From Planctomycetota bacterium (lineage in GTDB: Bacteria; Planctomycetota; Planctomycetia; Gemmatales; Gemmataceae), in contig QWPF01000002.1 of NCBI GenBank assembly GCA_003671255.1, positions 33,928 through 97,927 on the forward strand: a stretch of DNA of 64,000 nt, read 5' to 3'. The notes below the pieces were generated by a model. It saw only the letters and a program-made list of their open reading frames with translations. It had not been told where the DNA came from and ran no database searches. How positions within the stretch are numbered: the first letter of the stretch is position 1; each line of letters opens with the position of its first letter. The position numbers and the translations under genes were made by a program. Shown here in pieces: positions 5,966-21,272 of this stretch.

Positions 5966-6018
5966 GATTTTAATGATGGAACATGCTGTTATTAGATTTA
6001 AGAAAAGGCTTTAAGGTC

Positions 6019-6411
6019 ATGGATTTTGATCTTTCCACATACTACCCGATATTTATTTACGCGGTGTTTGTTTTTGGTTTTGCAATTTCTGCACTTACCG
6101 TTTCACACATATTCAGCCCGAATAAAAAAACATCGGTAAAAACCATGCCCTATGAATCTGGTATGGATCCGTTTGGTGATGCTAAAAAACAATTCGATGT
6201 GAAGTTTTATCTGATAGCCATTCTTTTTCTTGTGTTTGATGTAGAACTTTTATTTTTATATCCTTGGGCAGTTTCTGCTTATGCACCCGGAATGGCTTCG
6301 TTGCCTGTGTCCTATGGTGTGCCTGCCTTTATTGAAGTGCTTTTATTCGTTTTTGTTCTTTTCATTGGCTATATTTATGCTTGGAAAGCGGGAGTCTTTC
6401 AATGGCGCTAG
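6019..6411 (+). CDS. nuoA: NADH-quinone oxidoreductase subunit A
   Basis: First gene of the complex I operon. Three transmembrane helices are visible: IFIYAVFVFGFAISALTV, FYLIAILFLVFDVELLFLYPWAV and the C-terminal FIEVLLFVFVLFIGYIYAW. The family motifs PYESGMDP and KFYLIAILFLVFDVE are intact. The start is set at ATG 6019 because AAGG lies just upstream and the resulting 130 residues match the family; an in-frame ATG at 5983 would add 12 residues. The membrane subunit sits beside NuoH and NuoJ near the quinone site. The 3' end overlaps nuoB by 10 bp. Confidence 0.93.
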   Translation: MDFDLSTYYPIFIYAVFVFGFAISALTVSHIFSPNKKTSVKTMPYESGMDPFGDAKKQFDVKFYLIAILFLVFDVELLFLYPWAVSAYAPGMASLPVSYGVPAFIEVLLFVFVLFIGYIYAWKAGVFQWR

Positions 6412-6989
6412 AATTTTTGAAAGATAATTTTGTGGTTACAAAATTAGATTATCTTGCTAGTTGGTGCAGGAAATACAGTTTATTCCCTATGCCTTTTGCC
6501 ACTGCGTGTTGCGGGATTGAATTAATGGCAACGGGTGCAAGCAAACATGATATTTCTAGATTTGGTGCAGAAGCTTTCCGTTTTTCTCCAAGGCAATGCG
6601 ATTTAATGATCGTAGCAGGCCGAGTTGTAATGAAGATGGTTCCTGTTATGCAGCGTATTTGGCAACAGATGCCTGAACCAAAATGGTGTATATCAATGGG
6701 CGCTTGTGCATCAAGTGGTGGAGTATTTGATACATATGCTGTGGTACAGGGGATAGATCGATTTATACCGGTTGATATTTATGTTCCCGGTTGCCCACCA
6801 AGGCCCGAACAGTTATTGCAGGGGATTATAGATCTGCAGGAAAAAATAGCGAACACTGGGACTATTTTTGGAACAGAATTCGATAAACGGAATGTTTACG
6901 AAGGGCCAAAGCCACTGAGTAAGTTCCTGTCACCTGCTCAAAGTGTTCAGGCACCTGCTAATTTTCGAAGTTCAACTAGAACAATTTAG
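6402..6989 (+). CDS. nuoB: NADH-quinone oxidoreductase subunit B (Fe-S cluster N2)
   Basis: Peripheral-arm subunit carrying the terminal [4Fe-4S] cluster N2 that passes electrons to quinone. The ligands are Cys36-Cys37 (ATACCGIE), Cys102 (GACASSGG) and Cys131 (VPGCPPRP). The start is ATG 6402, with GGGAG seven bases upstream inside nuoA; the longer frame from TTG 6381 lacks a site. At 195 residues it is close to the family norm, with a C-terminal tail of about 40 residues after the NuoB core. Confidence 0.95.
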   Translation: MALEFLKDNFVVTKLDYLASWCRKYSLFPMPFATACCGIELMATGASKHDISRFGAEAFRFSPRQCDLMIVAGRVVMKMVPVMQRIWQQMPEPKWCISMGACASSGGVFDTYAVVQGIDRFIPVDIYVPGCPPRPEQLLQGIIDLQEKIANTGTIFGTEFDKRNVYEGPKPLSKFLSPAQSVQAPANFRSSTRTI

Positions 6990-7010
6990 TTTGATTTTAA
7001 GGGGTTTACT

Positions 7011-7514
7011 TTGAGCTTTGCTGATATTAAAGAAAAATTAACTGCTCAATTTGCTTTAATTAGCCTAGATTTTTCGTCATTCAGGGACAATGACAGGGTT
7101 GTTGTCCCGCCTTCACATCTTTTTGAAATTTTAAGTTACCTTAAAACAACTTTTAGTTTTGACATGCTCATTGATTTATCTGCTGCGGATTATCTTCACT
7201 TGCAAGGCGCAACCCATCGATATGGTATATGGTATGCAGTTTTGAATGTTGAAAACGGTGAGAGATTTATTGTTAAAACCCATCTCGATGACCCTGACCC
7301 TCGTCTTCCTTCCGTTTATGACCTTTGGAAAGGTGCGGATTGGATGGAGCGGGAAGTCTACGACATGTTTGGTATAGAATTTGATGGCCACCCGGATCTT
7401 CGCAGGATTTTATTGCCTGATGAATTTGTAGCTTTTCCACTGCGTAAAGATTACCCATTGCGTGGCATGGGCGAAAGGCATAATTTTCAACCAGTTATTC
7501 GTTCTGAATCGTGA
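7011..7514 (+). CDS. nuoC: NADH-quinone oxidoreductase subunit C
   Basis: A 167-residue NuoC (30-kDa subunit family), separate from NuoD. The family signature is clear near residues 105-150: [27 protein letters not shown], then FPLRKDYPL. The start is TTG 7011, supported by AAGGGG six bases upstream; there is no ATG nearby. NuoC packs against NuoD and helps hold the hydrophilic arm on the membrane arm. Confidence 0.94.
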
Positions 7515-7531
7515 TTTTGGAGTAGGATTCA

Positions 7532-8755
7532 ATGCCTTTAATTTTGGCTGATGCCATACCTGAAACAAGTTCGCCCGAAAGGGAGTTTCTTTGGACCCTT
7601 AATTTTGGTCCCCAGCATCCTGCTACCCATACCACCTTGCGTTTAATTTTGACTCTCGATGGCGAGGTAGTCGTTCATGCAATACCTGATATCGGGTTTT
7701 TACATAGTGGTTTTGAAAAACTAGGAGAGCATCTAGATTTTAATCAATATGTAACAATCGTTGATCGAATGAATTACATTTCGCCTGTATCTAATGAAAT
7801 TTCTTGGCATCATGCGGTTGAAAAATTACTGGACATTGAATTGACACCTCGTTGTAAGTATATTCGCACGATTTTTGCTGAATTGATGCGTATTCATGAT
7901 CACCTTGTATGTTGCGGAGCAGCGGCTTTAGATCTTGGCGCCTTTACTGCATTCTTGTACGCATTCAATTTGCGTGAAAAAATAAATGATATTTCTGAAG
8001 CCGCCAGCGGTCAGAGATTTCACCCCAGCTACACAAGGGTTGGTGGATTGCTTTGTGATGTTGATGATGTTTGGATTACAAAAATTCGTGCATTTATCAA
8101 ATTGTTTTACTCAGCTTATGCTGATCTAATGAAACTACTTCAGCGAAATCGCATTTTTGTTGATAGAACCAGGGGCGTTGGTGTTCTCACTAAAGAAGAA
8201 GCAATCAATCGTAGTGCAACTGGTCCAATTGCAAGGGCGAGTGGCGTTACCAGGGATCTTCGAAAAGACCAGCCTTATCTTGCTTATAAAGATTTTGATT
8301 TCAAAGTTGTTTGCTCAACCGAGGGGGATTGCTATGCACGCTTTCTCGTTCGTATGGAGGAGATGGTTCAGAGTATCAAAATAATAACCCAAGCTGTTGA
8401 GAACATTCCTTCCGGCCCTATTAATATTGATGTTAATTCGAAGTTCGTGGTTCCTAATCAAATGTCGGTTTATCGAAGTATTGAAGGGTTAATTCAGCAT
8501 TTTGAACTTCATATGACCAATAGACAATGGGAAACTCCTAAAGAAGAAATATACGCCGCCACCGAATCTCCTAATGGCGAGTTAGGTTTTTACATTGTGT
8601 CGGATGGATCTGGGGTTGCATATCGTGCTAGAACCAGGCCACCCTCTTTTGTACATTTTTCATTGTTCCCGCACTTGATTGTTGGTCACCAAATTAGTGA
8701 TATTCCAGCAGTTTTGGGTAGCATCAATATCATTGCAGCGGAGTTGGACCGATGA
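7532..8755 (+). CDS. nuoD: NADH-quinone oxidoreductase subunit D
   Basis: 49-kDa subunit family, 407 residues. It opens with the quinone-site loop FGPQHPATHTTLRL, whose His and the later Tyr line the quinone headgroup pocket. GFLHSGFEKLGEH, the YTRVGG segment and the C-terminal RARTRPPSFVHF and DIPAVLGSINIIAAELDR ending are all typical. NuoD derives from the hydrogenase large subunit but lacks the NiFe ligands. The stop overlaps the nuoE start as ATGA (8752-8755), implying translational coupling. Confidence 0.96.
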   Translation: MPLILADAIPETSSPEREFLWTLNFGPQHPATHTTLRLILTLDGEVVVHAIPDIGFLHSGFEKLGEHLDFNQYVTIVDRMNYISPVSNEISWHHAVEKLLDIELTPRCKYIRTIFAELMRIHDHLVCCGAAALDLGAFTAFLYAFNLREKINDISEAASGQRFHPSYTRVGGLLCDVDDVWITKIRAFIKLFYSAYADLMKLLQRNRIFVDRTRGVGVLTKEEAINRSATGPIARASGVTRDLRKDQPYLAYKDFDFKVVCSTEGDCYARFLVRMEEMVQSIKIITQAVENIPSGPINIDVNSKFVVPNQMSVYRSIEGLIQHFELHMTNRQWETPKEEIYAATESPNGELGFYIVSDGSGVAYRARTRPPSFVHFSLFPHLIVGHQISDIPAVLGSINIIAAELDR

Positions 8756-9231
8756 GCGCATTAAAGCCAGAAATTGTTGAAAAAATTAAAAGCTTGATCC
8801 TTCTTTACCCTGCAAAACAAGCTGTAACTTTGCCTGCGCTGCATCTTGTTCAAGATCAAGAACGCTGTGTTTCTCAACAAGCAATTGTTGAAATTGCTGC
8901 TCTTCTTGAGCTTAGCCCTGCAGAAATTCATGATACCATGAGCTTTTATGGTTTCTTTAAAACGGAATTAAACCCCTTGGGTAAATGCAGGCTTTGGGTT
9001 TGTCGAAGTCTTGCCTGTGATCTCCGTGGTGCTGATGAACTGCTCAATAAATTGATTACTAAATTGGGTGTCGCACCGGGGCAAACGACCAAGGATGGGT
9101 TTTTTACCCTCGAAGAAGCGGAATGCATCGGAGCTTGCGAAGGTGCACCTTGTGTTTTAATTAATGATGTTCATTCTCATAATGTTTCAGATGCTGACAA
9201 GTTAATTGATGATATTCGGAAAAAGCTTTAG
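8752..9231 (+). CDS. nuoE: NADH-quinone oxidoreductase subunit E ([2Fe-2S] N1a)
   Basis: 24-kDa thioredoxin-like subunit of the NADH-oxidising module, 159 residues. The four N1a cluster ligands are Cys84 and Cys89 (VCRSLACDL) and Cys125 and Cys129 (ECIGACEGAP). The N-terminal helical part contains LPALHLVQDQERCVSQQAI. It starts inside the nuoD stop codon and precedes nuoF by 35 bp. With NuoF and NuoG present, this organism has a true NADH-using complex rather than the 11-subunit form. Confidence 0.95.
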   Translation: MSALKPEIVEKIKSLILLYPAKQAVTLPALHLVQDQERCVSQQAIVEIAALLELSPAEIHDTMSFYGFFKTELNPLGKCRLWVCRSLACDLRGADELLNKLITKLGVAPGQTTKDGFFTLEEAECIGACEGAPCVLINDVHSHNVSDADKLIDDIRKKL

Positions 9232-9266
9232 ATTTAAATTATTCAAAGCTCAAAGGATTTTAAGAT

Positions 9267-10604
9267 ATGGCAAAATACGAGCCAGTACTTTTGAAAAGAA
9301 TCTCAAAAGATAATAGCGATCATATCGATTCGTATATTTCGGATGGTGGTTATCTTGGATTGAAAAAAGCAATTAAAGATATGTCTCCCGCGCAAGTGAT
9401 TGATCTTGTGAAAGCATCGGGTTTGCGAGGCAGGGGTGGTGCAGGTTTTCCCACCGGGCTTAAATGGACTTTTCTACCTAAAGACCATCCAGGTCCAATC
9501 TATCTTTGCATTAATGCTGATGAAAGTGAGCCATGCACTTTTAATAATCGCGTGCTAATGGAAAAAGATCCTCATCAAGTTCTCGAGGGTATAATCCTCA
9601 CTAGCTATGCTGTGGGTGCAAGTAAAACTTTTATTTATGTGCGTTATGAATATGGCGATGCCTACCGTGCTATGGAACGGGCTGTAAAACAGGCTTACGA
9701 CAAAGGCTTACTTGGGAAAAATATTCAAGGATCGTCATTTTGTTTGGAAGCGGTGATGCATAAAGGTGCAGCAGCTTATATTTGTGGTGAAGAAACGGGC
9801 CTTATAGAAAGTCTAGAAGGGAAAAGGGCCTGGCCTAGGATTAAGCCGCCTTTTCCTGCTATTGAAGGGGCTTTTCGTAAGCCTACGATTGTTAATAATA
9901 TCGAAACTGTTGCTTGTGTTAAACAGATTATCGATTTAGGTGCTGATTGGTTTAAATCGATTGGCGTACCACCTGACCCTGCGAATCCTAGAGATGCTGG
10001 AAGCTACGGACCAAAATTATATTGCATTAGTGGGCATGTTAATCGCCCTGGACTTGTCGAACTCCCAATGGGGATTTCGGTTCGTGAATTGATTTCTGAA
10101 CATGGTGGCGGTGTTTGGAAAAATCGTAAGGCCAAGGGTGTTATTCCTGGTGGTAACAGCATGGGTTTTATGACCGAGGCTGAACTTGATACCAAGTTAG
10201 ATTTTAATGGCCCGGGTAAAGTTGGTTGCTTAGGCCTTGGCACAGGTGCTGTTACGGTATTTGATGACCATACTAGTATCGTTGATGTTCTTTACAATAT
10301 TTGCAGATTTTTTGCCCATGAATCTTGCGGCCAGTGCACTCCTTGCAGGGAGGGTACTGCTTGGATGTTTAAAATCATTGATCGTATTCGCAAAGGCCAT
10401 GGTAGGATTGAAGACCTAAATATTCTTGAAGAGGTTGGTAATCAAATTGGCACAATGCCAGGTACCACAATTTGCGGGCTTGCTGATGGCGCTGGTTGGC
10501 CTGTTAAGAATGCCATTCGAAAATATCGCAGTGAGTTTGAATCTTATATTAAAAATGGTGATAAGAAAGTTAGAACTTTGAACCTACAAATGTCGCACCA
10601 TTAA
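9267..10604 (+). CDS. nuoF: NADH-quinone oxidoreductase subunit F (NADH/FMN, Fe-S N3)
   Basis: 51-kDa subunit, 445 residues, where NADH binds and reduces FMN. The Gly-rich NADH-binding stretch GLRGRGGAGFPTGLKW lies at about residues 52-67, and the FMN segment NADESEPCTF with the GAAAYICGEETGLIESLEG loop follows. The N3 [4Fe-4S] ligands are Cys354, Cys357 and Cys360 (SCGQCTPCREGT) plus Cys403 (TTICGLADG). ATG 9267 is preceded by AAGGATTTTAAGAT. Nothing unusual. Confidence 0.96.
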   Translation: MAKYEPVLLKRISKDNSDHIDSYISDGGYLGLKKAIKDMSPAQVIDLVKASGLRGRGGAGFPTGLKWTFLPKDHPGPIYLCINADESEPCTFNNRVLMEKDPHQVLEGIILTSYAVGASKTFIYVRYEYGDAYRAMERAVKQAYDKGLLGKNIQGSSFCLEAVMHKGAAAYICGEETGLIESLEGKRAWPRIKPPFPAIEGAFRKPTIVNNIETVACVKQIIDLGADWFKSIGVPPDPANPRDAGSYGPKLYCISGHVNRPGLVELPMGISVRELISEHGGGVWKNRKAKGVIPGGNSMGFMTEAELDTKLDFNGPGKVGCLGLGTGAVTVFDDHTSIVDVLYNICRFFAHESCGQCTPCREGTAWMFKIIDRIRKGHGRIEDLNILEEVGNQIGTMPGTTICGLADGAGWPVKNAIRKYRSEFESYIKNGDKKVRTLNLQMSHH

Positions 10605-10632
10605 TTGTTCTATTTATAATCGGAGCTTTTGG

Positions 10633-12276
10633 ATGGCCACTGTTTATATAAATGATAAAGCTGTTGATATTGGCGACAAGAAACTAAATCTTGTTCAAGC
10701 TGCAGAGTTAGCAGGCGTAACCATTCCTCATTATTGCTACCACCCTGCCCTTTCAGTGGTTGCTAGTTGTAGGATGTGCCTTGTTGAAGTTGGCGAAAAA
10801 AAACCAGATGGCACTGTCGTCATGCAACCTAGGGTCATACCTGCTTGTCAGACTCCTGCCAAGGATAACACTGTTATTCAAACTGCGACTGCTAAAAGTA
10901 AATCTGCACAAGCTCAAACTCTTGAGTCCATTCTTTTGAATCACCCCTTGGATTGTCCTGTTTGTGATAAGGCTGGGGAATGCAAACTTCAGGATTACAG
11001 TTATAATTACGGGAACTCTGAAAGCCGTATGGTGGATGATAAAAATACGCCCCCAAATAAACCTGATCTAGGCAATAATATCAGCCTTTTTACGGATCGT
11101 TGTATCATGTGCTCACGCTGTGTACGATTTACCCGTGAAATATCAGGCACTGCCGAGTTACATGTTATTAATCGTGGAAGCCATGCTGAAATTGATATTT
11201 TCCCCACGGAACCTCTAAACAATAAGCTTGCATCTAATGTCGTTGATCTTTGCCCAGTAGGCGCTTTGGCAAGCAAAGATTTTCTTTATACTCATCGTGT
11301 TTGGAATTTAAAAACTCAGGATAGTGTTTGCGCTGGTTGCTCTACGGGTTGTAGCATCCATCTAGATACAAATAAGAATGTTGTTTACAGGCTTCGACCC
11401 CGAGAAAACCCAAATGCTCAAGGGTACTTTATGTGCGATGATGGCCGCTTGGGCTATCATTATGTGAATTCTTCCAACCGTATTTCCAAACCAAATTTAA
11501 AATTAGATTCTGGTGCTGATATCTCTTCATGGAAAGATATTATGCTTTCCTTGCGCTCAGAACTCAAGGCCGTTGCTTCCAAAAACGCTTCCGGTGTTGC
11601 TGCCATGCTTTCGCCTTTTCTCACCGTGGAGGAAGGCTTTTTGCTTGCTACTTTTATCAAATCCATTTCCCCTAAGGCAAAGTTGGTTCTTGGTCCAGTC
11701 CCCGTGGTAGGGGAAGATGATCATTATCCAAAAACTCGGGGTTCTGTTCCAGTAAATGTGAAATTTACCATTCGCAACGAAAAATGTCCGAACAAAAAAG
11801 GTATCGAAGAAGTTATCAAGCATTTTGAAGGCGAGGTTGTTCTTGTCTCTGATTATTTGAATAAAAATTCACCCGATGCTTTGTTTATTGCTGCTGGGTA
11901 TCAGGGTGAAGAAGTTTCTTGGTTTGATAACAATCTTCTTTCTCAGTTTAAGAAAATTAAACTTTTGATTACCCAAGATCTTTTTCCTAGTGCCCTCACT
12001 GATGCTTCGAAATATGTTATTCCTTCTGCTGCTTTTTCTGAAAAAGAAGGCACTTTTGTTAACTTTGCAGGTTTAGCACAGGAACTGCATTGGGCTTGTG
12101 TCCCTTTAAAACAAGTTCGAACCGATGGTCAGGTTTATTTGGATTTACTCGAAAGAAAAGGTTTGCTTCAGGCTGCTAATATCAGGGATGAAATCTCTAA
12201 ATCTATTCCCTATTTTTCTCGATTGGCTGGTGGTAAACTTGGATCAGATGGCATACATTTGGTAAACTTAGCCTGA
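10633..12276 (+). CDS. nuoG: NADH-quinone oxidoreductase subunit G, short form
   Basis: 75-kDa subunit carrying the electron-wire clusters. The N-terminal [2Fe-2S] domain has CYHPALSVVASCRMCLVEVG, then PACQTPA. The His-ligated N5 cluster follows at HPLDCPVCDKAGECKLQDY, then N4 at CIMCSRCVRFTREISG with the later VDLCPVGAL Cys, and the start of the molybdopterin-like domain has CAGCSTGCSIHLD. At 547 residues it is shorter than the 700-900 of many bacteria: the molybdopterin-oxidoreductase-like C-terminal domain is reduced to roughly 300 residues. GGAG precedes ATG 10633. Confidence 0.94.
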   Translation: MATVYINDKAVDIGDKKLNLVQAAELAGVTIPHYCYHPALSVVASCRMCLVEVGEKKPDGTVVMQPRVIPACQTPAKDNTVIQTATAKSKSAQAQTLESILLNHPLDCPVCDKAGECKLQDYSYNYGNSESRMVDDKNTPPNKPDLGNNISLFTDRCIMCSRCVRFTREISGTAELHVINRGSHAEIDIFPTEPLNNKLASNVVDLCPVGALASKDFLYTHRVWNLKTQDSVCAGCSTGCSIHLDTNKNVVYRLRPRENPNAQGYFMCDDGRLGYHYVNSSNRISKPNLKLDSGADISSWKDIMLSLRSELKAVASKNASGVAAMLSPFLTVEEGFLLATFIKSISPKAKLVLGPVPVVGEDDHYPKTRGSVPVNVKFTIRNEKCPNKKGIEEVIKHFEGEVVLVSDYLNKNSPDALFIAAGYQGEEVSWFDNNLLSQFKKIKLLITQDLFPSALTDASKYVIPSAAFSEKEGTFVNFAGLAQELHWACVPLKQVRTDGQVYLDLLERKGLLQAANIRDEISKSIPYFSRLAGGKLGSDGIHLVNLA

Positions 12277-12306
12277 TTTTAAAATCACGGTTTTGAAAGG
12301 ATTGGA

Positions 12307-13674
12307 ATGAGTCTGGAATTTTCGCTTTTAATTACTGTTGCTTTGATATTGGCTGTTCTTGGCTGCTTGAATGGCGGAGTGGCTTACCTTATTTTGGTTG
12401 AGCGTAAAATTTCCGCTTGGGTTCAAGATCGGGTTGGCCCTAATCGTGCATTTTATGGAATCCTGCAACCTATTTGCGACGGCGTGAAATTGCTTCTTAA
12501 AGAAGAGATGATTCCTAAATATGTTGATAAAATATTTTTCATGATTGCACCAGCCATCGCTCTTATTACAGCTTTTATGGCATTAGCCGTTGTTCCTTTT
12601 GGGCCCACAAGTCCTTCCCCTATTCTCATTGATTATAGACAAAATTCTCCAACCTATGAACTTGCTGTTTGGCCCTCCACAAAATCAGAATATGATGCTG
12701 TTATTGATGCAGACAGAAGTCGTGCCCTGGAGAAAAAATCTGTTTCATTTGAAGAACAAATTAAAGTTTATAATTCTCGCATCCAATTTGTGCTTGCTCC
12801 TCATGTTGATATTGGGATTCTTTTCGTTTTTGCAATCGGAAGTCTTGGCGTTTACGGTGTAATTCTTGGAGGTTGGTCTTCGAATAATAAATACAGTCTT
12901 CTAGGTTCTTTGCGTTCGAGTGCTCAGCTTATTAGTTATGAAATCCCACTTGGATTATCTGTGCTTGGTGTTGTTCTTGTAACCGGCTCACTTAACCTTG
13001 AACGCATTATTCAGCATCAAGTAGATCATGGCTGGAATGTTTTGTTTCAACCTTTGGCAATGGTACTTTTTGCCACTTCCATTTTCGCTGAGTGTAATCG
13101 TCTACCTTTTGATCTGCCTGAATCTGAACAAGAACTGGTTGGTGGTTATCACACTGAATACAGTTCCATGAAATTTGCACTTTTTCTATTCGGTGAATAT
13201 ACTCACATGATCACCACTAGTTTCCTTATGATGACTGTGTTTTTTGGTGCTTGGCATCTTCCTTTTATTACCGATCCAAATGACTTTTCGATTTTTGGAA
13301 TCGCTCTTAAATTTGCAGTTGCTGCTGGCAAAACTATTGGTTTCATTATCTTTTATATGCTTATTCGATGGACTATTTTAAGGTTTCGATTTGATCAACT
13401 TATGCACCTTGCCTGGAAGATAATGCTTCCTATTTCTTTGGCAAGTTTTACTGTTCTTGTGTTTATTGTTCATTTTAAACCGATTGGTCAGGAATCTATT
13501 TGGCTTATGTGCCCTGTTTCACTTGCGATTTTGCTGGCGTCAGGTTTTATTGGTATCAGGCTTTCTAAACCAACGGCTCACGCTACCAAATCCAAGGTTC
13601 CTTATCTTGGCCATGGCACAGGGTATTCCGTTCAACATGATTCTAAGATTCGTCTTGAAAGTTCAAGCAGATAG
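12307..13674 (+). CDS. nuoH: NADH-quinone oxidoreductase subunit H with a loop insertion
   Basis: Eight-helix membrane subunit at the quinone cavity. VERKISAWVQDRVGPNR (31-47), near the quinone entrance, and the CNRLPFDLPESEQELVGGYHTEY loop are intact. An insertion of about 65 mainly polar, charged residues (about 101-165, containing SRALEKKSVSFEEQ) sits between helix 2 (ending VVPFGP) and helix 3 (starting HVDIGILFVFA), where typical NuoH has only a few residues. By NuoH topology this loop faces the periplasm. There is also a soluble C-terminal tail after the last helix. At 455 residues it is much longer than the usual 320-350. Confidence 0.94.
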   Translation: MSLEFSLLITVALILAVLGCLNGGVAYLILVERKISAWVQDRVGPNRAFYGILQPICDGVKLLLKEEMIPKYVDKIFFMIAPAIALITAFMALAVVPFGPTSPSPILIDYRQNSPTYELAVWPSTKSEYDAVIDADRSRALEKKSVSFEEQIKVYNSRIQFVLAPHVDIGILFVFAIGSLGVYGVILGGWSSNNKYSLLGSLRSSAQLISYEIPLGLSVLGVVLVTGSLNLERIIQHQVDHGWNVLFQPLAMVLFATSIFAECNRLPFDLPESEQELVGGYHTEYSSMKFALFLFGEYTHMITTSFLMMTVFFGAWHLPFITDPNDFSIFGIALKFAVAAGKTIGFIIFYMLIRWTILRFRFDQLMHLAWKIMLPISLASFTVLVFIVHFKPIGQESIWLMCPVSLAILLASGFIGIRLSKPTAHATKSKVPYLGHGTGYSVQHDSKIRLESSSR

Positions 13675-13701
13675 TTATTACTGGTATTTAAAGGGGTTGG
13701 C

Positions 13702-14301
13702 ATGAAAGCTGATGAAATAACTTGGGTTAAATCTCCTGAATTTGGAGTTATGGACCAGATTTTTCTACCTGCTATTTTTACAGGCTTGGTTACTACTTTA
13801 ACTCATATGGGTAGTACGCTTTTTGGTCCGAAAAAAGATGTTGTTACTCAGCAGTTCCCTGAGCAGAGACCTCATTTGCCAGCTAATTATCGTGGTGTTC
13901 ATCGACTTAATCGGGATGATGAAGGCCGTGTTAAATGTGTTGCTTGCTATATGTGTTCAACTGCATGCCCTGCTCATTGTATTGATATCGTAGCTGCACC
14001 TTCCCCCTGGCCCGATCGCGAAAAATATCCTGAAGTCTTTGTCATTGATGAGCTTCGTTGTATCTACTGTGGAATGTGTGAACAGGCCTGCCCGGTTGAT
14101 GCTATTGAACTTACTACGCTTTATGATCTTACCGGCCATAGCCGTGAAGAAATGATTTTTAATAAAGAAAAACTTTTGAGCGTTTTTGATAAGACAGTTG
14201 CAATGGGAACTGATCCTATTCGTACAACACACGGTAGGCTGGGTGTTGCTAGTGAACCTGCCTCGAGTGGTGTAACTGGTTCTTCTTCCATGCAAACTTA
14301 G
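13702..14301 (+). CDS. nuoI: NADH-quinone oxidoreductase subunit I (2x[4Fe-4S])
   Basis: Ferredoxin-type subunit carrying clusters N6a and N6b. Two 8-Fe ferredoxin motifs are complete: CVACYMCSTACPAHCIDIV and CIYCGMCEQACPVDAIEL, in the middle third of the 199-residue protein. The N-terminal amphipathic part (QIFLPAIFTGLVTTLTHM) anchors it on the membrane arm. A Ser/Thr-rich tail of about 30 residues follows the normal end. It lies between nuoH and nuoJ in the standard order. Confidence 0.95.
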   Translation: MKADEITWVKSPEFGVMDQIFLPAIFTGLVTTLTHMGSTLFGPKKDVVTQQFPEQRPHLPANYRGVHRLNRDDEGRVKCVACYMCSTACPAHCIDIVAAPSPWPDREKYPEVFVIDELRCIYCGMCEQACPVDAIELTTLYDLTGHSREEMIFNKEKLLSVFDKTVAMGTDPIRTTHGRLGVASEPASSGVTGSSSMQT

Positions 14302-14353
14302 AGCTTTACCCTATGTTAAATTCTTGCTGTGTTTTTGGTTGGGAAGTATTTTA

Positions 14354-15409
14354 ATGAATGAGCAACCTTGGATTACCCTGACAAATCTTTCGCTACTTTT
14401 AGGGTGGCTTGCGGTTTATTTTTGCTTGCCAAAAAGAATTTCCGGTTCTAGTAGGCTAGTTGGTTATGGGGTTGGTTCAGTTGCTTTAATCATTACTGCT
14501 ATTCAAATTTTCTTCACTTATTCCTTTAACCCCGAACTTGTGTTGTTTTGTTTATTTTCTTTTTTTGCTGTTGTTGGTGCTTGTCTTATGATTGTTGCAC
14601 AAAATCCAGCACATGGCGCTATTTGCTTTGCTTTAACAATAACCAGCACGGGTGGAATATTTCTTCTTCTTGCAGCACCGTTTGTTATGGCTGCAAATAT
14701 TATTGTTTATGCTGGTGCGATTATTGTTACTTTTCTCTTTCTACTTATGCTTGTTAAACAGCATAATGCTGATCTAGCTGATTCCGAGAGTAGAGAGCCT
14801 TTTCTTGCTTCATTTACGGGTTTTATTTTATTGGGTTGTATGATTTCCGTTCTTAATGCTTCTTTCTCTTCGCAATCCCAACTCGGTGCCCGTAATGAAA
14901 TTGAACGAATTGTTGATGATACCAATAAAGCACTTTCCCTTACGGATCTTTCAGAACTAAAGGCCAAGGTGATTAATGGTGACAATAATGTTGTTACCAG
15001 ACTTAAAATTGCTTTAGGTGGAAGTGGTACCTGGGTTGAAAGAATTGAAGTTGATGTCCAAAAAAATGGCACTTATATGATTAATAAATCTGATGATATT
15101 GCTGAAATCAAATCAGCACTCGCTTCTCTTGCAAGTATTGGAAACGATTACTTAAAATACCGATCCTTATTGCGCCCTTCAATTGCCATGCCTGGTAATT
15201 CTGGGGCTGATCCTAGTTTGCCCTTGGATAAGATCAGAAAAGATCAATCTGGGAGGCCAGCTATGCCCGCTGACAATACAACATTCTTGGGCAAACTGCT
15301 TTTCTCTGATCAATTGATTGCTGTTGAATTGGCTGGGTTATTGCTTTTGGTTGCCACTATTGGTGCGATTGTTATTGTTCGCCAATTGCCAACGAAGGTG
15401 AGTTCATAA
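14354..15409 (+). CDS. nuoJ: NADH-quinone oxidoreductase subunit J with a large loop insertion
   Basis: Membrane subunit J, here 351 residues against the usual 165-200. The core helices are recognisable: FCLFSFFAVVGACLMIVAQNPAHGAICFALT, ANIIVYAGAIIVTFLFLLMLV (with the unwound helix-3 region) and the final LIAVELAGLLLLVATIGAIVIVRQ. About 145 soluble residues (about 172-316) are inserted between helices 4 and 5, a loop that faces the periplasm. They include a charged stretch (NEIERIVDDTNKAL) and a Pro-rich end (MPGNSGADPSLPL). Extra hydrophobic residues also precede the first canonical helix. ATG 14354 is chosen over TTG 14324 because GGAAG lies upstream. Confidence 0.92.
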   Translation: MNEQPWITLTNLSLLLGWLAVYFCLPKRISGSSRLVGYGVGSVALIITAIQIFFTYSFNPELVLFCLFSFFAVVGACLMIVAQNPAHGAICFALTITSTGGIFLLLAAPFVMAANIIVYAGAIIVTFLFLLMLVKQHNADLADSESREPFLASFTGFILLGCMISVLNASFSSQSQLGARNEIERIVDDTNKALSLTDLSELKAKVINGDNNVVTRLKIALGGSGTWVERIEVDVQKNGTYMINKSDDIAEIKSALASLASIGNDYLKYRSLLRPSIAMPGNSGADPSLPLDKIRKDQSGRPAMPADNTTFLGKLLFSDQLIAVELAGLLLLVATIGAIVIVRQLPTKVSS

Positions 15410-15411
15410 TA

Positions 15412-15837
15412 ATGTTAGATTTGAAAATTTATTTGATCTTGGGCGCAATTTTGTTCTGCATCGGGCTCATAGGTTTTGTTTCCAGAAGAAATATGATCAC
15501 CATGTTTCTAAGCGCAGAATTAATGCTTCAAGGCGTTGCTATCAATTTCCTCGCATTCTCGAGGTTCAGAGGCAATCTTCAGGGGCAATCGTTTGTCCTT
15601 TTTATTCTTTCTGTTGCTGCTTGCGAAGCTGCTATTGCACTTGCTTTAATTGTTATTCTTTATCGTGCTAAAAATTCACTTGATGTAAGTAAATGGCAGG
15701 ATTTACGCGAAGAAGATCTGGAACCTAATGAAGATCCGGAAATATTGCTGCTTGATACTTTCCAGATTGAACCCATGCCTACATTACCCGTAGCTGGGCA
15801 CAGGCCTGCCAAAGAAGAGGATGCAAGCCATGTATGA
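15412..15837 (+). CDS. nuoK: NADH-quinone oxidoreductase subunit K with a C-terminal extension
   Basis: Three-helix MnhC-related membrane subunit. The helices are LIYLILGAILFCIGLIGFVS-like (N-terminal), MITMFLSAELMLQGVAINFLAF (with the conserved membrane Glu in SAELML) and FVLFILSVAACEAAIALALIVILY (second membrane Glu in CEAAI). The usual length is about 100; this one has an extra acidic and proline-rich tail of about 40 residues, on the cytoplasmic side by NuoK topology. Its last bases overlap the nuoL start. Confidence 0.94.
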   Translation: MLDLKIYLILGAILFCIGLIGFVSRRNMITMFLSAELMLQGVAINFLAFSRFRGNLQGQSFVLFILSVAACEAAIALALIVILYRAKNSLDVSKWQDLREEDLEPNEDPEILLLDTFQIEPMPTLPVAGHRPAKEEDASHV

Positions 15838-17842
15838 TGCTATGGCGTATTTGTGGATGATTCCTGCATTTCCTATTGTTGCAGGTTTTATTACTTTTAT
15901 TATTGGGCCTAAGGTTCTTCGTTCCCAAGCCCACTTGCCTTGCATTATTGCAGGATTTATTTCTTTTATTTTGTCTTTGATGGTTCTTAATGATGTCGTA
16001 AAAGCAATTCAAACTAGTGATATAGCAAATCCTTCTTCTGTTGCAGTTTCTTACTTCGAGTGGTTTCGTACCGGAGATCCAAATCTGGTTGGCGAAAACT
16101 TTAAGAAAGCGGGTGCATTAAAAGCTGAATTTAGTCTTAGGTTGGATCCCCTTTCTTCTGCAATGATTGTTATGGTTACCTTCTTAGGTACCCTCATCGC
16201 TGTTTTTTCAACAGGCTACATGAGAGACCATCACGGACATATTGATCCTGGTTACCCACGATTTTTTGCCTCTGTTTCGCTTTTTCTTGGATCAATGTTA
16301 ATTCTTGTTCTCGCTGATAATGTTCTTTTACTGTATGCAGGTTGGGAAGGTGTTGGCCTTTGTAGTTATCTGCTCATTGGTTTTTGGTTTGAAAAACCTT
16401 CAGCTTGCAAAGCTGCTAGAAAGGCATTTTTAGTTACCAGACTTGGAGATGTGGCTTTGTTTTTAGGTTTTGCATCTCTTTGGGTTTCTTCTGGATACAG
16501 ACTTGATTTTGATGGCTTACTAAAGCTTGATAACTACGATTCAGGTGTTGGCTTGGCTTGCTTCTTAATGTTTCTAGGAGCTTGTGGGAAATCTGCTCAA
16601 TTCCCTCTTCATGTTTGGTTGCCCGATGCTATGGAAGGCCCTTCCCCAGTAAGTGCTCTTATCCATGCTGCGACTATGGTTACTGCAGGAGTTTATCTCC
16701 TTGCTAGATTTATGCCTCTTTTTGCTTCCGTTCCCGAAGTGCAAATGGTGGTTATTGCTGTTGGTACCTTTACAAGTCTCTTGGCAGCATTAATTGCTCT
16801 AACACAAACCGATTTAAAAAGAATTCTTGCCTATTCAACGATGAGTCAGCTTGGTTATATGTTCATGGCCTTGGGGGCTGGTATTGATCCTAAATCTGCT
16901 CTTCCAATGTTGGCAGTAAGTGCTGCAATTTTTCATCTTCTTACCCATGCATTTTTTAAAGCATTGCTCTTTTTAAGTGCTGGAAGTGTGATGCATTCAA
17001 TGCATGATGTGATAGATTTACGGCGCATCGGTGGGCTTAGAAAGGTTTTACCATTAACTCATATTGGTTTTTTGTGTGGGGCTCTTGCTTTAGCTGGGTT
17101 ACCTCCATTTGCTGGTTTTTGGAGTAAAGATGAGATTCTAAGCGTAATCCATGAAACTTCTAAAGCTTCGAATTACCCTTGGTTTTATATTTTGATGTGG
17201 GCTATTGGGATCTTTGTTGCTTTTCTTACAGCTTTCTACACTTTTAGAGCCTATTTTCTTACTTTCTGGGGTGTCCTAAAACTTCCCGAGGAATGTCATG
17301 GCGAAGTTCATGAATCTCCTAAATCAATGACCCTTCCTTTAATGCTTTTATCCCTATTCGCCCTTGGTATTGGGTTTGGTCTTTCCAATTTCACACCATT
17401 TTCTATAGAGACATTTTTAGGTAAAATTCCTGGTTATGTAATTCAAGATCATCACTCACATGATTGGCTGACCGTTGGTTTTGCAACATTTGCTGGTTTA
17501 GCTGGATTGATTTTGGCTTTTGTATTTTATGGTTCAGGCAATGTTACTATTTCTGAACAAGCCATTGGGAAGTCTAATTTTGCTATTGAACTCAGCAAAA
17601 ACAAATTCTTTTTTGATGAAATTTATAACAAGCTTTTAATTGCGCCTCTAAATTTGGGTTTTTATTGTGCAAGAATCTTTGATCAATATATCCTTGATGG
17701 TATCGTTGATTTGATTGCGCATATTCCTAAGATTTTTGCGCAATTATTTCGCCCTATTCAAAATGGTTTAGTTCAGTTTTATGCCCTTGCGATGATTTTG
17801 GCGGTGACTGTATTCCTGATAGCCCTAGCAAGATCGATGTAG
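15830..17842 (+). CDS. nuoL: NADH-quinone oxidoreductase subunit L
   Basis: Largest antiporter-like proton-pumping subunit, about 670 residues. Conserved motifs include LLLYAGWEGVGLCSYLLIGFW (pumping Glu in helix 5), ACGKSAQFPLHVWLPDAMEGPSPVSALIHAATMVTAG split over helices 7-8 with its Lys, and LTHAFFKALLFLSAGSVMH. The C-terminal lateral helix and extra last helix (MILAVTVFLIALA) are present. ATG 15830 has AGAGG nine bases upstream; ATG 15821 is also possible but sits directly on that site. It overlaps nuoK by 8 bp. Confidence 0.95.
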   Translation: MYDAMAYLWMIPAFPIVAGFITFIIGPKVLRSQAHLPCIIAGFISFILSLMVLNDVVKAIQTSDIANPSSVAVSYFEWFRTGDPNLVGENFKKAGALKAEFSLRLDPLSSAMIVMVTFLGTLIAVFSTGYMRDHHGHIDPGYPRFFASVSLFLGSMLILVLADNVLLLYAGWEGVGLCSYLLIGFWFEKPSACKAARKAFLVTRLGDVALFLGFASLWVSSGYRLDFDGLLKLDNYDSGVGLACFLMFLGACGKSAQFPLHVWLPDAMEGPSPVSALIHAATMVTAGVYLLARFMPLFASVPEVQMVVIAVGTFTSLLAALIALTQTDLKRILAYSTMSQLGYMFMALGAGIDPKSALPMLAVSAAIFHLLTHAFFKALLFLSAGSVMHSMHDVIDLRRIGGLRKVLPLTHIGFLCGALALAGLPPFAGFWSKDEILSVIHETSKASNYPWFYILMWAIGIFVAFLTAFYTFRAYFLTFWGVLKLPEECHGEVHESPKSMTLPLMLLSLFALGIGFGLSNFTPFSIETFLGKIPGYVIQDHHSHDWLTVGFATFAGLAGLILAFVFYGSGNVTISEQAIGKSNFAIELSKNKFFFDEIYNKLLIAPLNLGFYCARIFDQYILDGIVDLIAHIPKIFAQLFRPIQNGLVQFYALAMILAVTVFLIALARSM

Positions 17843-17848
17843 TGCAAA

Positions 17849-19594
17849 ATGAGTCAATTAGTTTTACTTCTTTTATTGGTACCTCTCGCAGGTGGATTAG
17901 TTACTCTTTTCGTAAGAAATGCAGGACATAAATTCGCACGGAACCTCGCTCTGGGCTTTTTCCTCTTAAACCTTTTTATCTCTTTTAAACTTACCTGGGA
18001 TTATTTGCCTCTTCTTGAAAAACATTCTATTTCTGTTGAAGAAAAACTTACTTTTGTTCCTTTAGAATCAAGCGTTACTGTTTTTGATCTTATTAGAATT
18101 AATCCGCCTTATGAAGGTAGACCTGATGCTGGTGCTATTCGATTTTTTATTGGTATTGATGGCCTTAACCTTTTTCTGCTGCCTTTAACTTGCATCTTAT
18201 TTTCCGGGTCAGTACTTGCTACTTGGAATTCCATTCGAGAAAAATCACACCTCTATTACGGATTTATGCTTCTTCTTCAATTTGCAACCCTTGGTGCTTT
18301 TCTTTCTTTCGATGTTATTCTTTTTTATGCTTTCTTTGAGTTGACTTTGATTCCTCTTCTTTTTCTTATCGCAATGTGGGGCGGACCAAATAGACAGTAT
18401 GCAGCTAAAAAATTATTTGTTTATACCTTGGGGGGTGGCTTAGCTACTTTACTTGGTGTAATTAGTCTTATTTCTGCTCTTAATCAAAATCTCCTTGATG
18501 ATAATAACGATTTACCCGTTACTTTTTCCATTCCTGAATTGATTACAGCTTCCCATGACACTCAGGTTGGTCTTAATAAAAAAGTTTTTGAAACCAAAGC
18601 TGATAAAGATTTGTTAAACCCTTTGCTTAAAACTAATCTTGAAATTAATAAAGCTAAATTGGATTATTGGTCTTCATGCCAAAAATGGATTTTCCTTCTT
18701 CTAGCTACGGGGTTTTTGGTTAAACTTCCCGCTTTCCCTTTTCACACCTGGCAGCCTACTGCTTATTATGAAGCACCTACGGGCGTTACTCTTGTACTTG
18801 GCGGAATTCTCGCAAAACTTGGTGCGTTTGGTTTCCTTAGGCTTTGTGTTCCGATGTTACCTGTTCCCGCTTGGGAATTTGGTACTTATTTATTTTCCAT
18901 ATTATCTGTCGTCGCGATTTTGTATGGAGCTGCTTGCGCCATCGCTCAGGATGATTTAAAACGCATGCTAGCTTACAGTAGTTTTAGTCATCTAGGTTTT
19001 TGCCTTTTAGGGATATTTGCTTTAAATGAGACTGGTTTGACTGGAAGTTATCTTCAAATGATTAATCATGGATTAAATGTAGGCGCTCTGTTCTTTATCT
19101 GCGAAATTCTTCACCACAGATATGGCACGACTAAGTTCAAAGATCTTCAGGGACTTGGAAGTAAACTAAAAATTCTTTCTGGTATTACTGTTTTTTATGT
19201 CATGTGCAGTGTTGGTTTGCCTGGCCTTAATGGTTTTGTTGGCGAAGTTATGTGTTTATTTGGTATGTTTGAAACTAATAACCCTAGTGTTTCTGGCAAA
19301 ATTTTAGCATCTACATGCAGTTTAGGAATGGTTTTTGGTGCGTGGTATTTAATATCCATGGTTATGAAGGTCTTTTTTGGAAAGCTTTCAGAACCCGTAT
19401 TTAAAAAAGAAGATCCTGTTTCTGACCTTACTATGGTTGAAAAGATATTCTTATTTCCTTTGGCATTACTTTGCCTTTTTCTTGGAATTTATCCTCAACC
19501 CATGATTGATACTATTCGTCCAGAGATTCATTTGATTGCTAAGTTGAATTTGCAGGCTAACAACTTGTTACCTCTGGCTAAAATGGATAAATAA
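17849..19594 (+). CDS. nuoM: NADH-quinone oxidoreductase subunit M with a loop insertion
   Basis: Antiporter-like proton-pumping subunit, 581 residues (usual about 490-510). The key residues are Glu164 in FFELTLIPLLFLI and Lys292 in FLVKLPAFPFHTWQP, plus LGAFGFLRL and the Lys-containing QDDLKRMLAYSSFSHLGF. About 65 soluble residues (about 212-278, including VGLNKKVFETKADKDLLNP) are inserted between helices 6 and 7, and the helix 2-3 loop (about 51-97) is also long. Both loops face the periplasm. The spacing from nuoL is 6 bp. Confidence 0.94.
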   Translation: MSQLVLLLLLVPLAGGLVTLFVRNAGHKFARNLALGFFLLNLFISFKLTWDYLPLLEKHSISVEEKLTFVPLESSVTVFDLIRINPPYEGRPDAGAIRFFIGIDGLNLFLLPLTCILFSGSVLATWNSIREKSHLYYGFMLLLQFATLGAFLSFDVILFYAFFELTLIPLLFLIAMWGGPNRQYAAKKLFVYTLGGGLATLLGVISLISALNQNLLDDNNDLPVTFSIPELITASHDTQVGLNKKVFETKADKDLLNPLLKTNLEINKAKLDYWSSCQKWIFLLLATGFLVKLPAFPFHTWQPTAYYEAPTGVTLVLGGILAKLGAFGFLRLCVPMLPVPAWEFGTYLFSILSVVAILYGAACAIAQDDLKRMLAYSSFSHLGFCLLGIFALNETGLTGSYLQMINHGLNVGALFFICEILHHRYGTTKFKDLQGLGSKLKILSGITVFYVMCSVGLPGLNGFVGEVMCLFGMFETNNPSVSGKILASTCSLGMVFGAWYLISMVMKVFFGKLSEPVFKKEDPVSDLTMVEKIFLFPLALLCLFLGIYPQPMIDTIRPEIHLIAKLNLQANNLLPLAKMDK

Positions 19595-19631
19595 TGGTCA
19601 CCTTATTTTTTAGATTGGTATTGGTGGATCA

Positions 19632-21272
19632 ATGAGCGGATCTTTTTTATTTACTGATTATATTCAATACATGATGCCTGAGATTGTGCTATTCATGCTA
19701 GGAAGTTTTATACTTCTTGTCGGGCCATTTTTAAATAAAAAAACTCCTTGGGCTTTAATTAGTTCCTTAGGTTTTTTACTTGCTTATATTTTACTCCTCA
19801 CTAAAAAACATGACTCAATTGATCATTCCTTTTTATTTTCAATTAATGTTCTTGAAGATATGTCTTCTAATTTTGTTAGACACTTTTCTCTTGGTATGGG
19901 ATTGTTCTTTTGTTTGATTTTTTGGAGAGACTCAGAAAATGATAATTCTTATGAAACTCTAGCTCTTATTATTTTCCTAGTTACCGGCTGCTCTGTTGTT
20001 GGCATGTCTAATGATTTGGTTGTTCTTTTCCTAGGTCTTGAATTAATTAGCATTCCCACTTATGTCCTGCTTTATTTACACGGCAAAAAGGATCTAGCTG
20101 CTGAATCTGCTATGAAGTATTTCTTCCTTTCAATCTTCTCCTCCGGATTGCTTCTTCTAGGGTTCAGTTATCTTTATGGCATCGTTGGAACTACCAATAT
20201 TTCGGCGATTTCTGACGCTTTAAGTAATGGATACCGTTTTAAACCTGCCGCTGATATTGATAACTCCTCTGGTTTCCTTTTTCTAATTCCTATGCTTGCA
20301 ATACTTGCTGGTTTAGGTTTTAAAGTGAGCATGGTACCTTTTCATTTTTATGCTCCTGATGTTTACCAAGGTACTACCTATCGAATGTGTGCTTTACTTG
20401 CTACTGTTTCAAAAGTTGCTGGGTTTGCTGCTATTATTCGTATCTTTGGTTTTGCTTTGGCTCAAGGTGCTTTGCCCGGGGCTTCTAAAACCCTCGACAA
20501 TATTTATGTTCTATTTTGGATTCTTGCCACTGTTACCATGACTATTGGCACCATTCTCGGCCTTCTCCAACGAAATCTCCGCAGAATTTTAGCTTACTCT
20601 AGTATTTCACATTCCGGCTATATTCTTGCAGGTATAGCTGTTGCTCCTAAACTTGATTTAACTACAGGTATTGATGGTATTGGTGCTTCTTTCTTTTATT
20701 TAATCGCTTACTTCTTTGGAACTTTTGGAATTTTCGCAGTTCTTGATGTCTTGGATTCAAAAGATAAACCAATTGAAGATTGGGACGATCTTGCAGGTGT
20801 AGGCACTCAAAATCCGTTGTTATCTATATGTCTTGCAGTGTTTTTGTTTAGTTTAATTGGTATCCCTTTTACCGGCGGTTTTCTTGCTAAGTTTTTTATT
20901 GTTTTTGGTTGTGTTAGCGTTCCCTACACATGGGATGACCCACTTAGTAAAGGGTCTCATAATTTGTTTTTTTTGTTGGGCATAATTGCTTTTTTAAATG
21001 CTGCTATAGGTTCATGGATTTATTTAAGAATTTTATCTGGTATTTATTTCAAACCAGCTATTTGGCCTAAAGTTATTAATACTTCTTTTCGCCCCAGTTA
21101 TTTACCGATTGCTGCATGCCTTTTTATCGTTATTGTTCTTGGAGTAAGGCCTAGTCTTATAATTAATCTTAATTTGTTAAAAGGTATGGCTGCTTCTGGG
21201 AATAGTGCTTCTATTTCAAAAATTGTTGATCCTGATTCTATTGATAAACAGGTAGTTTCTAAAAGGCAATGA
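19632..21272 (+). CDS. nuoN: NADH-quinone oxidoreductase subunit N
   Basis: Third antiporter-like subunit, 546 residues. LFLGLELISIPTYVLLYL carries the pumping Glu. AMKYFFLSIFSSGLLLLG, LGFKVSMVPFHFYAPDVYQGTTYRMCALLATVSKVAGF with its Lys residues, and LLQRNLRRILAYSSISHSGYIL complete the usual pattern. It closes the nuo operon. A charged Ser/Lys tail of about 30 residues follows the last helix. The kinase-like gene starts 14 bp downstream, so it is probably cotranscribed. Confidence 0.94.
   Translation: MSGSFLFTDYIQYMMPEIVLFMLGSFILLVGPFLNKKTPWALISSLGFLLAYILLLTKKHDSIDHSFLFSINVLEDMSSNFVRHFSLGMGLFFCLIFWRDSENDNSYETLALIIFLVTGCSVVGMSNDLVVLFLGLELISIPTYVLLYLHGKKDLAAESAMKYFFLSIFSSGLLLLGFSYLYGIVGTTNISAISDALSNGYRFKPAADIDNSSGFLFLIPMLAILAGLGFKVSMVPFHFYAPDVYQGTTYRMCALLATVSKVAGFAAIIRIFGFALAQGALPGASKTLDNIYVLFWILATVTMTIGTILGLLQRNLRRILAYSSISHSGYILAGIAVAPKLDLTTGIDGIGASFFYLIAYFFGTFGIFAVLDVLDSKDKPIEDWDDLAGVGTQNPLLSICLAVFLFSLIGIPFTGGFLAKFFIVFGCVSVPYTWDDPLSKGSHNLFFLLGIIAFLNAAIGSWIYLRILSGIYFKPAIWPKVINTSFRPSYLPIAACLFIVIVLGVRPSLIINLNLLKGMAASGNSASISKIVDPDSIDKQVVSKRQ

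Follow-up and report, generated by a model that had tools for sequence, protein, structure and literature searches.

The contribution of the many accessory subunits of mitochondrial complex I is a matter of debate. In the mammalian enzyme, the account given in PMC8762328 places NDUFA1, on the side of the intermembrane space, against both ND1 and ND6; the elements displayed at this site are the ND1 TMH2-3 loop and the ND6 TMH4-5 loop. NDUFA1 occupies the groove between TMH1 and TMH7 of ND1, which the longer TMH2-3 loop of T. thermophilus partly fills, and makes up for the short ND1 loop; the TMH2-3 loop is thought to be important for the stability of TMH1 (PMC8762328). E. coli NuoJ is described as having five transmembrane (TM) helices with its N terminus outside and its C terminus inside (PMC4604451). 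Extensions of the E. coli peripheral arm, together with a loop of NuoG, are reported to lie within the chains themselves, to overlap the positions of other species' supernumerary subunits and to stabilise that arm (PMC8357420).

The window analysed here, a 64,000-nucleotide stretch from a Gemmataceae, UBA969-like MAG, encodes NuoA-N together, the same 14 subunits in the same gene order as in the bacterial NDH-1 enzymes of known structure (E. coli, T. thermophilus, Paracoccus and Mycobacterium), and the ORF list of the window contains no additional ORF between nuoA and nuoN (Table 1). Nine subunits were named by Pfam (B, C, G, H, J, K, L, M and N), and NuoA, D, E, F and I were assigned from sequence and gene order. 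The cores of NuoH and NuoJ superpose on solved chains, and NuoK, L, M and N are recognised by family. E36 and E72 of NuoK are invariant in 21 sequences, as are E164 and K292 of NuoM in 15; we take these conserved acidic and lysine residues of the membrane arm to be proton-path residues, the NuoM pair presumably being the equivalents of those in E. coli NuoM. The enzyme is an ordinary-type 14-subunit complex I with enlarged core membrane subunits, whose reading frames lie where the original prediction had placed them.

Table 1. Coordinates of the nuo genes and of the enlarged parts of their products, in window positions.
Feature	Position	Strand	Evidence
nuoA-N operon, complete	5983..21272	+	ORFs in order
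nuoA, B, C, D, E starts	A 5983, B 6381, C 7011, D 7532, E 8752	+	
nuoF, G, H, I, J starts	F 9267, G 10633, H 12307, I 13702, J 14354	+	
nuoK, L, M, N starts	K 15412, L 15821, M 17849, N 19632	+	
nuoH, 455 aa	12307..13674	+	PF00146 E 4.5e-107; AlphaFold core vs E. coli 7z7v_H, Z 34.9
NuoH TM2-3 insert, residues 100-164, predicted periplasmic helices	12604..12798	+	anchor distances; AlphaFold
nuoJ, 351 aa from ATG; in-frame TTG at 14324	14354..15409	+	PF00499 E 2.3e-30
NuoJ N-terminal hairpin, two extra TM helices, residues 1-58	14354..14527	+	alignment offset, hydropathy, AlphaFold
NuoJ TM4-5 insert, residues 168-304, predicted helical domain and weakly predicted linker	14855..15265	+	anchors, AlphaFold
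nuoK, 141 aa	15412..15837	+	PF00420 E 1.5e-26
NuoK C-terminal tail, residues 100-141, predicted cytoplasmic	15709..15834	+	anchors, alignment
nuoM, 581 aa	17849..19594	+	PF00361 E 9.1e-55; TIGR01972
NuoM enlarged TM2-3 loop, residues 53-94	18005..18130	+	anchors
NuoM enlarged TM6-7 loop, residues 212-275	18482..18673	+	anchors

Distances from conserved anchors, compared with E. coli K-12, give the size of each addition. The NuoH TM2-3 loop, for which a gain of about 65 residues had been claimed, measures 83 residues against 23 (+60), and the NuoJ TM4-5 loop, credited with about 145, measures 215 against 92 (+123), with an insert proper delimited at 137 residues. Beyond its anchor NuoK has 70 residues against 29 (+41), in agreement with the proposed 40-residue tail. 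The TM2-3 loop of NuoM is long, as had been noted (75 against 57, +18), and its TM6-7 loop is indeed expanded (111 against 68), but the gain of +43 falls short of the 65 or so originally given. A further difference from E. coli, absent from the original prediction, lies at the N terminus of NuoJ, where about 60 residues precede the canonical subunit: residue 64 pairs with residue 4 of the solved chain 9g83_J in the alignment, the matching family models start at or after residue 59, and AlphaFold places two extra hydrophobic helices at residues 6-24 and 32-55. All five canonical helices are present, and the protein is a NuoJ (PF00499) with an extension, having seven TM helices rather than the five, N terminus outside, of canonical NuoJ/ND6. 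Judging by this protein, a NuoJ with seven helices is possible.

The NuoH insert is modelled by AlphaFold at pLDDT 88-97 with helices at 126-143 and 148-157. In the NuoJ insert, six helices are predicted at pLDDT 73-95 over residues 181-270, followed by values of 51-55 over 271-290, within a fold model of moderate overall quality (mean pLDDT 75, pTM 0.62). Given these confident helices, both inserts are probably folded; disorder of the loops, named beforehand as a finding that would count against the original prediction, is not predicted for these two. Pfam matches up to E 1 were absent for the NuoJ insert, the NuoM inserts and the NuoK tail, while the best values for the NuoH insert (E 0.022) and the NuoJ hairpin (E 0.047) were under the family cut-off; a search of PDB sequences with the NuoJ insert gave one chance match (E 0.54). 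With whole-chain models as queries, Foldseek and VIA-align matches fell on the NuoJ core (model residues 58-172) and on the whole of NuoH, and among the VIA-align matches listed for the whole NuoJ model no relative of the insert stood well above unrelated rows.

A comparison with 125 loci and 20 further loci of the class shows that the inserts keep the same positions in relatives and are lineage-specific, as the original prediction required. Leaving aside sequences that a contig end truncates, all those of the Planctomycetia type have the NuoJ hairpin and NuoK tail. The large insert in NuoJ belongs mainly to Gemmatales, and the NuoH and NuoM expansions are patchy. Two layers of gain explain this distribution best, an older, class-wide one comprising hairpin and tail, and a mainly Gemmatales, patchy one comprising the J and H inserts and the longer NuoM loops. 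The stepwise record begins with the NuoJ hairpin, continues with the NuoK tail and ends with the J and H inserts. Loci of the same genus carry the same inserts without indels (four loci for H and J, three for M), which excludes chance or assembly error, and the H, J and M TM6-7 inserts are 77-84% identical in amino acids within the genus. The added parts are under purifying selection there, with dN/dS of 0.05-0.26; the cores have values about 2-10 times lower.

The side of the membrane assigned to the NuoM loops and the NuoK tail is that of E. coli topology. For the H and J loops, the proposal that they face the periplasm is supported by the topology described for NuoJ (PMC4604451) and by the NDUFA1 site, where known structures also bear out that the H and J loops are neighbours (PMC8762328). 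The H and J inserts would therefore enlarge two loops at the periplasmic heel, the site of NDUFA1 in mammals; judged from the homologous loops, NDUFA1, NDUFA8, NDUFA13 and NDUFS5 would lie in the same place. In mammals NDUFA1, with the other three around it, steadies TMH1 of ND1 and ties ND1 to ND6; the two inserts could meet and would brace the joint of H/A with J/K from inside the core chains. We give roughly an even chance to the reading that a two-layer gain was made on an ordinary complex I and that its H and J inserts are structural, in-chain stabilisers of the heel. It is favoured because the inserts hold the same positions in relatives, lack indels within the genus, show low dN/dS and are confidently modelled, and because of the NDUFA1 geometry and the E. 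coli precedent as described in the papers cited above. The absence of H-J co-variation, the fast divergence of the J insert (profile links in 4 of 21 group pairs) and the moderate J model argue against it. The longer loops of NuoM are probably local elaborations of their own.

The strongest alternative, which we consider unlikely, is that permissive periplasmic loops pick up insertions with no shared task, folded just to avoid harm. Loop lengths in the type loci do vary widely (H 31-129, J 106-358, M TM6-7 65-199) and independently, the inserts evolve faster than the cores at a rate that also fits loosely constrained loops, and outside the class an unrelated insert arose at the same NuoJ site (L169). 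Against such tolerance stand dN/dS well below 1, the lack of indels within the genus, the confident predicted folds and a J loop of at least 150 residues in 70 of 88 type loci, and a class-wide tail and hairpin are hard to call neutral.

In a more ambitious version of the stabiliser reading, which strikes us as distinctly improbable, the seven-TM NuoJ, the NuoK tail and the H/J heel domains would form an in-chain Planctomycetia shell convergent with the mitochondrial accessory shell, and the Gemmatales H and J domains would meet, lock the heel and perhaps dock alternative complex III. That the J and H inserts serve as a docking surface is very doubtful; the bound partner would be a second respiratory complex, with alternative complex III the likeliest, or a periplasmic subunit. 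The genome has an ActB-C-D-E-like cluster (an NrfD match and neighbours, named by inspection), and an alternative complex III-cytochrome oxidase supercomplex is described from Flavobacterium johnsoniae (PMC8361435), but the cluster lies on another contig than the nuo operon, the operon offers no extra ORF, and the fast divergence of the J insert argues against a conserved docking face.

Co-variation of loop lengths was tested as contrasts on the tree, with a wider set of 80 loci for the NuoJ TM4-5 and NuoM TM2-3 loops. Correlations were low for H-J (r=0.11), J-M TM6-7 (r=0.06) and J-M TM2-3 (r=0.05); H-M TM6-7 alone, among six pairs tested, was nominally significant (r=0.30, p=0.0095 uncorrected) and dropped to r=0.10 without its three strongest contrasts. 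A long J loop accompanies a short H loop in 13 of 72 loci and the reverse holds in 4 of 72; L066 has a long J loop with a short H loop, and L105 and L131 combine a long H loop with J and M TM6-7 loops that are not long. With no H-J co-variation and such discordant loci, neither loop needs the other. Independent-pair tests were limited to 3-5 pairs each, too small a number to weigh for or against. The single cap originally proposed, formed by the loops of H, J and M, is very unlikely: H and J are adjacent as it supposed, and M TM6-7 loops of at least 95 residues occur only with H loops of at least 45 (all 22 cases in the 57 loci where the three loops are present), but few contrasts carry the H-M TM6-7 signal, neither M loop changes in length together with J, and NuoN is described as sitting between NuoJ/K and NuoM (PMC10212512). 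A J domain reaching over NuoN to NuoM was also dropped, as the J-M TM2-3 correlation of the first set (58 loci; r=0.50, p 6e-5, sign agreement 26 of 46) vanished in the wider one (exceptions L103, L117, L188 and L179). In the first set, the NuoH loop also correlated with the NuoN TM6-7 loop (r=0.44), driven by few contrasts.

The stabiliser reading sets the window beside two known cases of added mass. Mitochondrial heel subunits are separate proteins without sequence relation to the additions, as judged by the Pfam search of the J and M inserts and the NuoK tail. In the window no addition is a separate polypeptide of the supernumerary kind, and all are encoded within the reading frames of NuoH, J, K and M. 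The E. coli extensions are likewise in-chain, on the cytoplasmic peripheral arm, whereas the H, J and M inserts are predicted on the periplasmic face of the membrane arm. Pieces added to core chains may do the job of separate mitochondrial helper proteins, and a bacterial class that enlarged the same spots within core subunits would be a natural comparison for them; with a stepwise record, each addition can be tested separately in cultured relatives. Titles and abstract openings in the open-licence PMC literature yielded no description of planctomycete complex I inserts, the NuoJ hairpin or the NuoK tail. Four relatives (L037, L038, L040 and L051) have nuoL directly before nuoN; a loss of nuoM was considered and rejected, since all four genomes carry a nuoM of 564-619 aa away from the operon and nothing has therefore been lost.

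The window encodes a variant of complex I, not a new machine, whose enlargements are real, lineage-specific and under selection. When loop lengths are taken as distances between conserved anchors and compared with E. coli, the NuoH TM2-3 loop spans 83 residues vs 23, the NuoJ TM4-5 loop 215 vs 92, the NuoM TM6-7 and TM2-3 loops 111 vs 68 and 75 vs 57, and the NuoK C-terminal tail 70 vs 29, so the enlargements named in the original prediction are genuine. NuoL TM6-7 (66 vs 70) and NuoN TM2-3 (47 vs 44) are near normal, and NuoN TM6-7 has 80 residues vs 70. An N-terminal extension of NuoJ, consisting of two extra hydrophobic helices (the hairpin), had been overlooked. NuoG has only 547 residues compared with about 908 in E. 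coli, and its C-terminal part is therefore much reduced.

Coordinates of the complex I operon and other features in the window
Feature	Position	Strand	Remark
Homospermidine biosynthesis protein	1520-2647		deoxyhypusine synthase superfamily (NF001980, 536.6 bits)
Complete nuoA-N operon	5983-21272	+	
nuoG	10633-12276		
Kinase-like gene	21286-22251	+	directly 3' of nuoN; APH fold family (PF01636, E 2e-8); weak NCBIfam matches only
Planctomycete PSCyt1/PSCyt2/PSD1 protein	52880-55900		

The inserts behave as constrained protein. Within the genus no indels were found in them (four loci for NuoH, NuoJ and NuoK, three for NuoM), and dN/dS, which is approximate because dS reaches 1.55, is 0.08-0.20 for the NuoH insert, 0.12-0.15 for the NuoJ insert, 0.15-0.20 for the hairpin, 0.05-0.11 for the NuoK tail, 0.07-0.10 for NuoM TM6-7 and 0.16-0.26 for NuoM TM2-3, compared with 0.01-0.06 for the cores. 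Disorder had been named as part of a refuting outcome; for NuoH and NuoJ, AlphaFold instead places confident helices, with pLDDT 88-97 for the NuoH insert (helices 126-143 and 148-157; whole-model mean 80) and 73-95 over residues 181-270 of the NuoJ insert, which hold six helices and are followed by a weak linker (51-55 over 271-290). The hairpin scores 79-91 over residues 11-50, in a NuoJ model with mean pLDDT 75 and pTM 0.62. The NuoH core can be superposed on its E. coli counterpart (7z7v_H; Z 34.9, rmsd 2.5, 314 aligned), and the NuoJ core (residues 57-172) on NuoJ/ND6 chains of known structure, at best with Z 12.6 (rmsd 4.7, 112 aligned). These models suggest that both inserts are probably folded.

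The distribution across 125 deduplicated loci (88 Planctomycetia-type, 35 outside the class and two class loci with NuoH only), together with 20 loci from additional families in the class, bears out lineage-specificity. A NuoK tail of at least 65 residues occurs in 86 of the 88 type loci and in all 20 further class loci; the two type loci without it, L071 and L098, sit at the ends of contigs. Outside the class it occurs in 3/26 (L148, L168, L169), all with a different, His-rich tail. By hand count, NuoK matches reach into the tail in 95 of 148 class genomes, plus one partial match, and the remainder have no NuoK match or canonical-length matches only. Among 89 type sequences including the window, the two hydrophobic segments of the hairpin were detected in 77 at a strict and 9 at a relaxed threshold, three being cut; by eye, the hairpin is present in 18/18 further class loci having NuoJ. 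Outside the class it was found in 1/26 (L140), and L167 has a single segment. Since L140, sister of a 63-row type clade (FastTree support 1.0 for both splits), combines the hairpin with a canonical NuoK, the hairpin probably arose before the tail.

On these comparisons the large loops are younger and patchily distributed. A NuoJ loop of at least 150 residues is found in 70/88 type loci, a count biased towards Gemmatales because the scan retained the loci most similar to the window, and in 1/18 further class loci (L179, 183 residues). Outside the class it occurs in 1/26, locus L169 of genome G205, whose large insert at the same NuoJ TM4-5 loop is unrelated. A NuoH loop of at least 45 residues occurs in 50/72 loci and a NuoM TM6-7 loop of at least 95 in 24/65. 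Combinations differ: L105 has a long NuoH loop alone (NuoH/NuoJ/NuoM TM6-7, 77/125/66) and L066 a long NuoJ loop without a long NuoH loop (33/241/82). The tail and hairpin are more widely conserved than the loops first highlighted, and may matter more. Profile comparison of NuoJ inserts in seven groups (column-shuffled controls below 1%) connects four of 21 pairs: the window's group with its sister at 92% probability (E 6e-7), two Gemmata-Limnoglobus groups with each other at 99.6%, and two less certain pairs at 71% and 59%. The remaining 17 pairs fall below 10%. The inserts could be a single rapidly diverging domain, or they could have arisen several times at one site.

The proposal that the NuoH, NuoJ and NuoM loops pack as a single periplasmic cap is not supported for NuoM. 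Phylogenetic contrasts of loop lengths (six pairs; 80 loci, 72 for pairs involving NuoH) yield NuoH-NuoJ 0.11, NuoJ-NuoM TM6-7 0.06, NuoJ-NuoM TM2-3 0.05, NuoH-NuoM TM2-3 -0.07 and NuoM TM6-7-TM2-3 0.01. NuoH-NuoM TM6-7 is the sole nominally significant contrast (0.30, p 0.0095, among six pairs) and hinges on few contrasts. Rank correlations uncorrected for phylogeny are higher (0.26-0.69), an effect of related species having loops in common. A NuoJ-NuoM TM2-3 signal in an earlier, smaller set was gone in the larger one. Moreover, NuoM adjoins neither NuoH nor NuoJ, NuoN sitting between, as described in part of PMC10212512.

A role at the heel, the periplasmic joint of NuoH and NuoJ, can be envisaged. 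E. coli NuoJ is N-out/C-in according to a portion of PMC4604451, and TM4-5 is therefore periplasmic. In passages of one review (PMC8762328), NDUFA1 contacts ND1 and ND6, along with other accessory subunits, on the side of the intermembrane space, and the groove it fills is partly filled in T. thermophilus by a longer ND1 TMH2-3 loop, suggested to be important in stabilising TMH1. In the planctomycete, the inserts lengthen the equivalents of ND1 TMH2-3 and ND6 TMH4-5, and we infer that they would wedge or brace the heel from within the core chains. E. coli likewise uses in-chain extensions as wedges or braces, but on the peripheral arm (an excerpt of PMC8357420). We found no description of such inserts in open-licence papers.

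In the window genome, a 3.2 Mb MAG (191 contigs, 95% complete), no second complex I was seen: NuoJ (at E 1e-3) and NuoH (at E 1e-20) gave a single match each. On another contig (G000:C124, L192) lies an ActB-C-D-E-like cluster, named by inspection from an NrfD match and its neighbours, with only below-cut-off NCBIfam matches to related Fe-S and NrfD proteins; alternative complex III is therefore a possible partner of complex I, and no tie between this cluster and the inserts was found. Among the best 80 of 208 NuoJ-scan loci, the closest relatives that carry a name are MAGs, for example 'Planctomycetaceae bacterium UBA969' (NuoJ identity 87%), and labels are mostly Gemmataceae or Planctomycetota, the odd ones being four 'Kuenenia' and one 'Bacteroidales'. 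Planctomycetia-type complex I is also encoded on MAG contigs assigned to Kuenenia stuttgartiensis or Bacteroidales (L056, L101, L125, L131, L100), and these labels look wrong. In L037, L038, L040 and L051 (genomes G053, G048, G042 and G002), nuoN comes straight after nuoL, and nuoM (564-619 aa) is on another contig in all four. Five relatives (G012:C212, G014:C9, G042:C15, G048:C1, G002:C5) have an additional set of NuoJ/NuoM-like matches nearer canonical length, representing a second complex I alongside the enlarged form.
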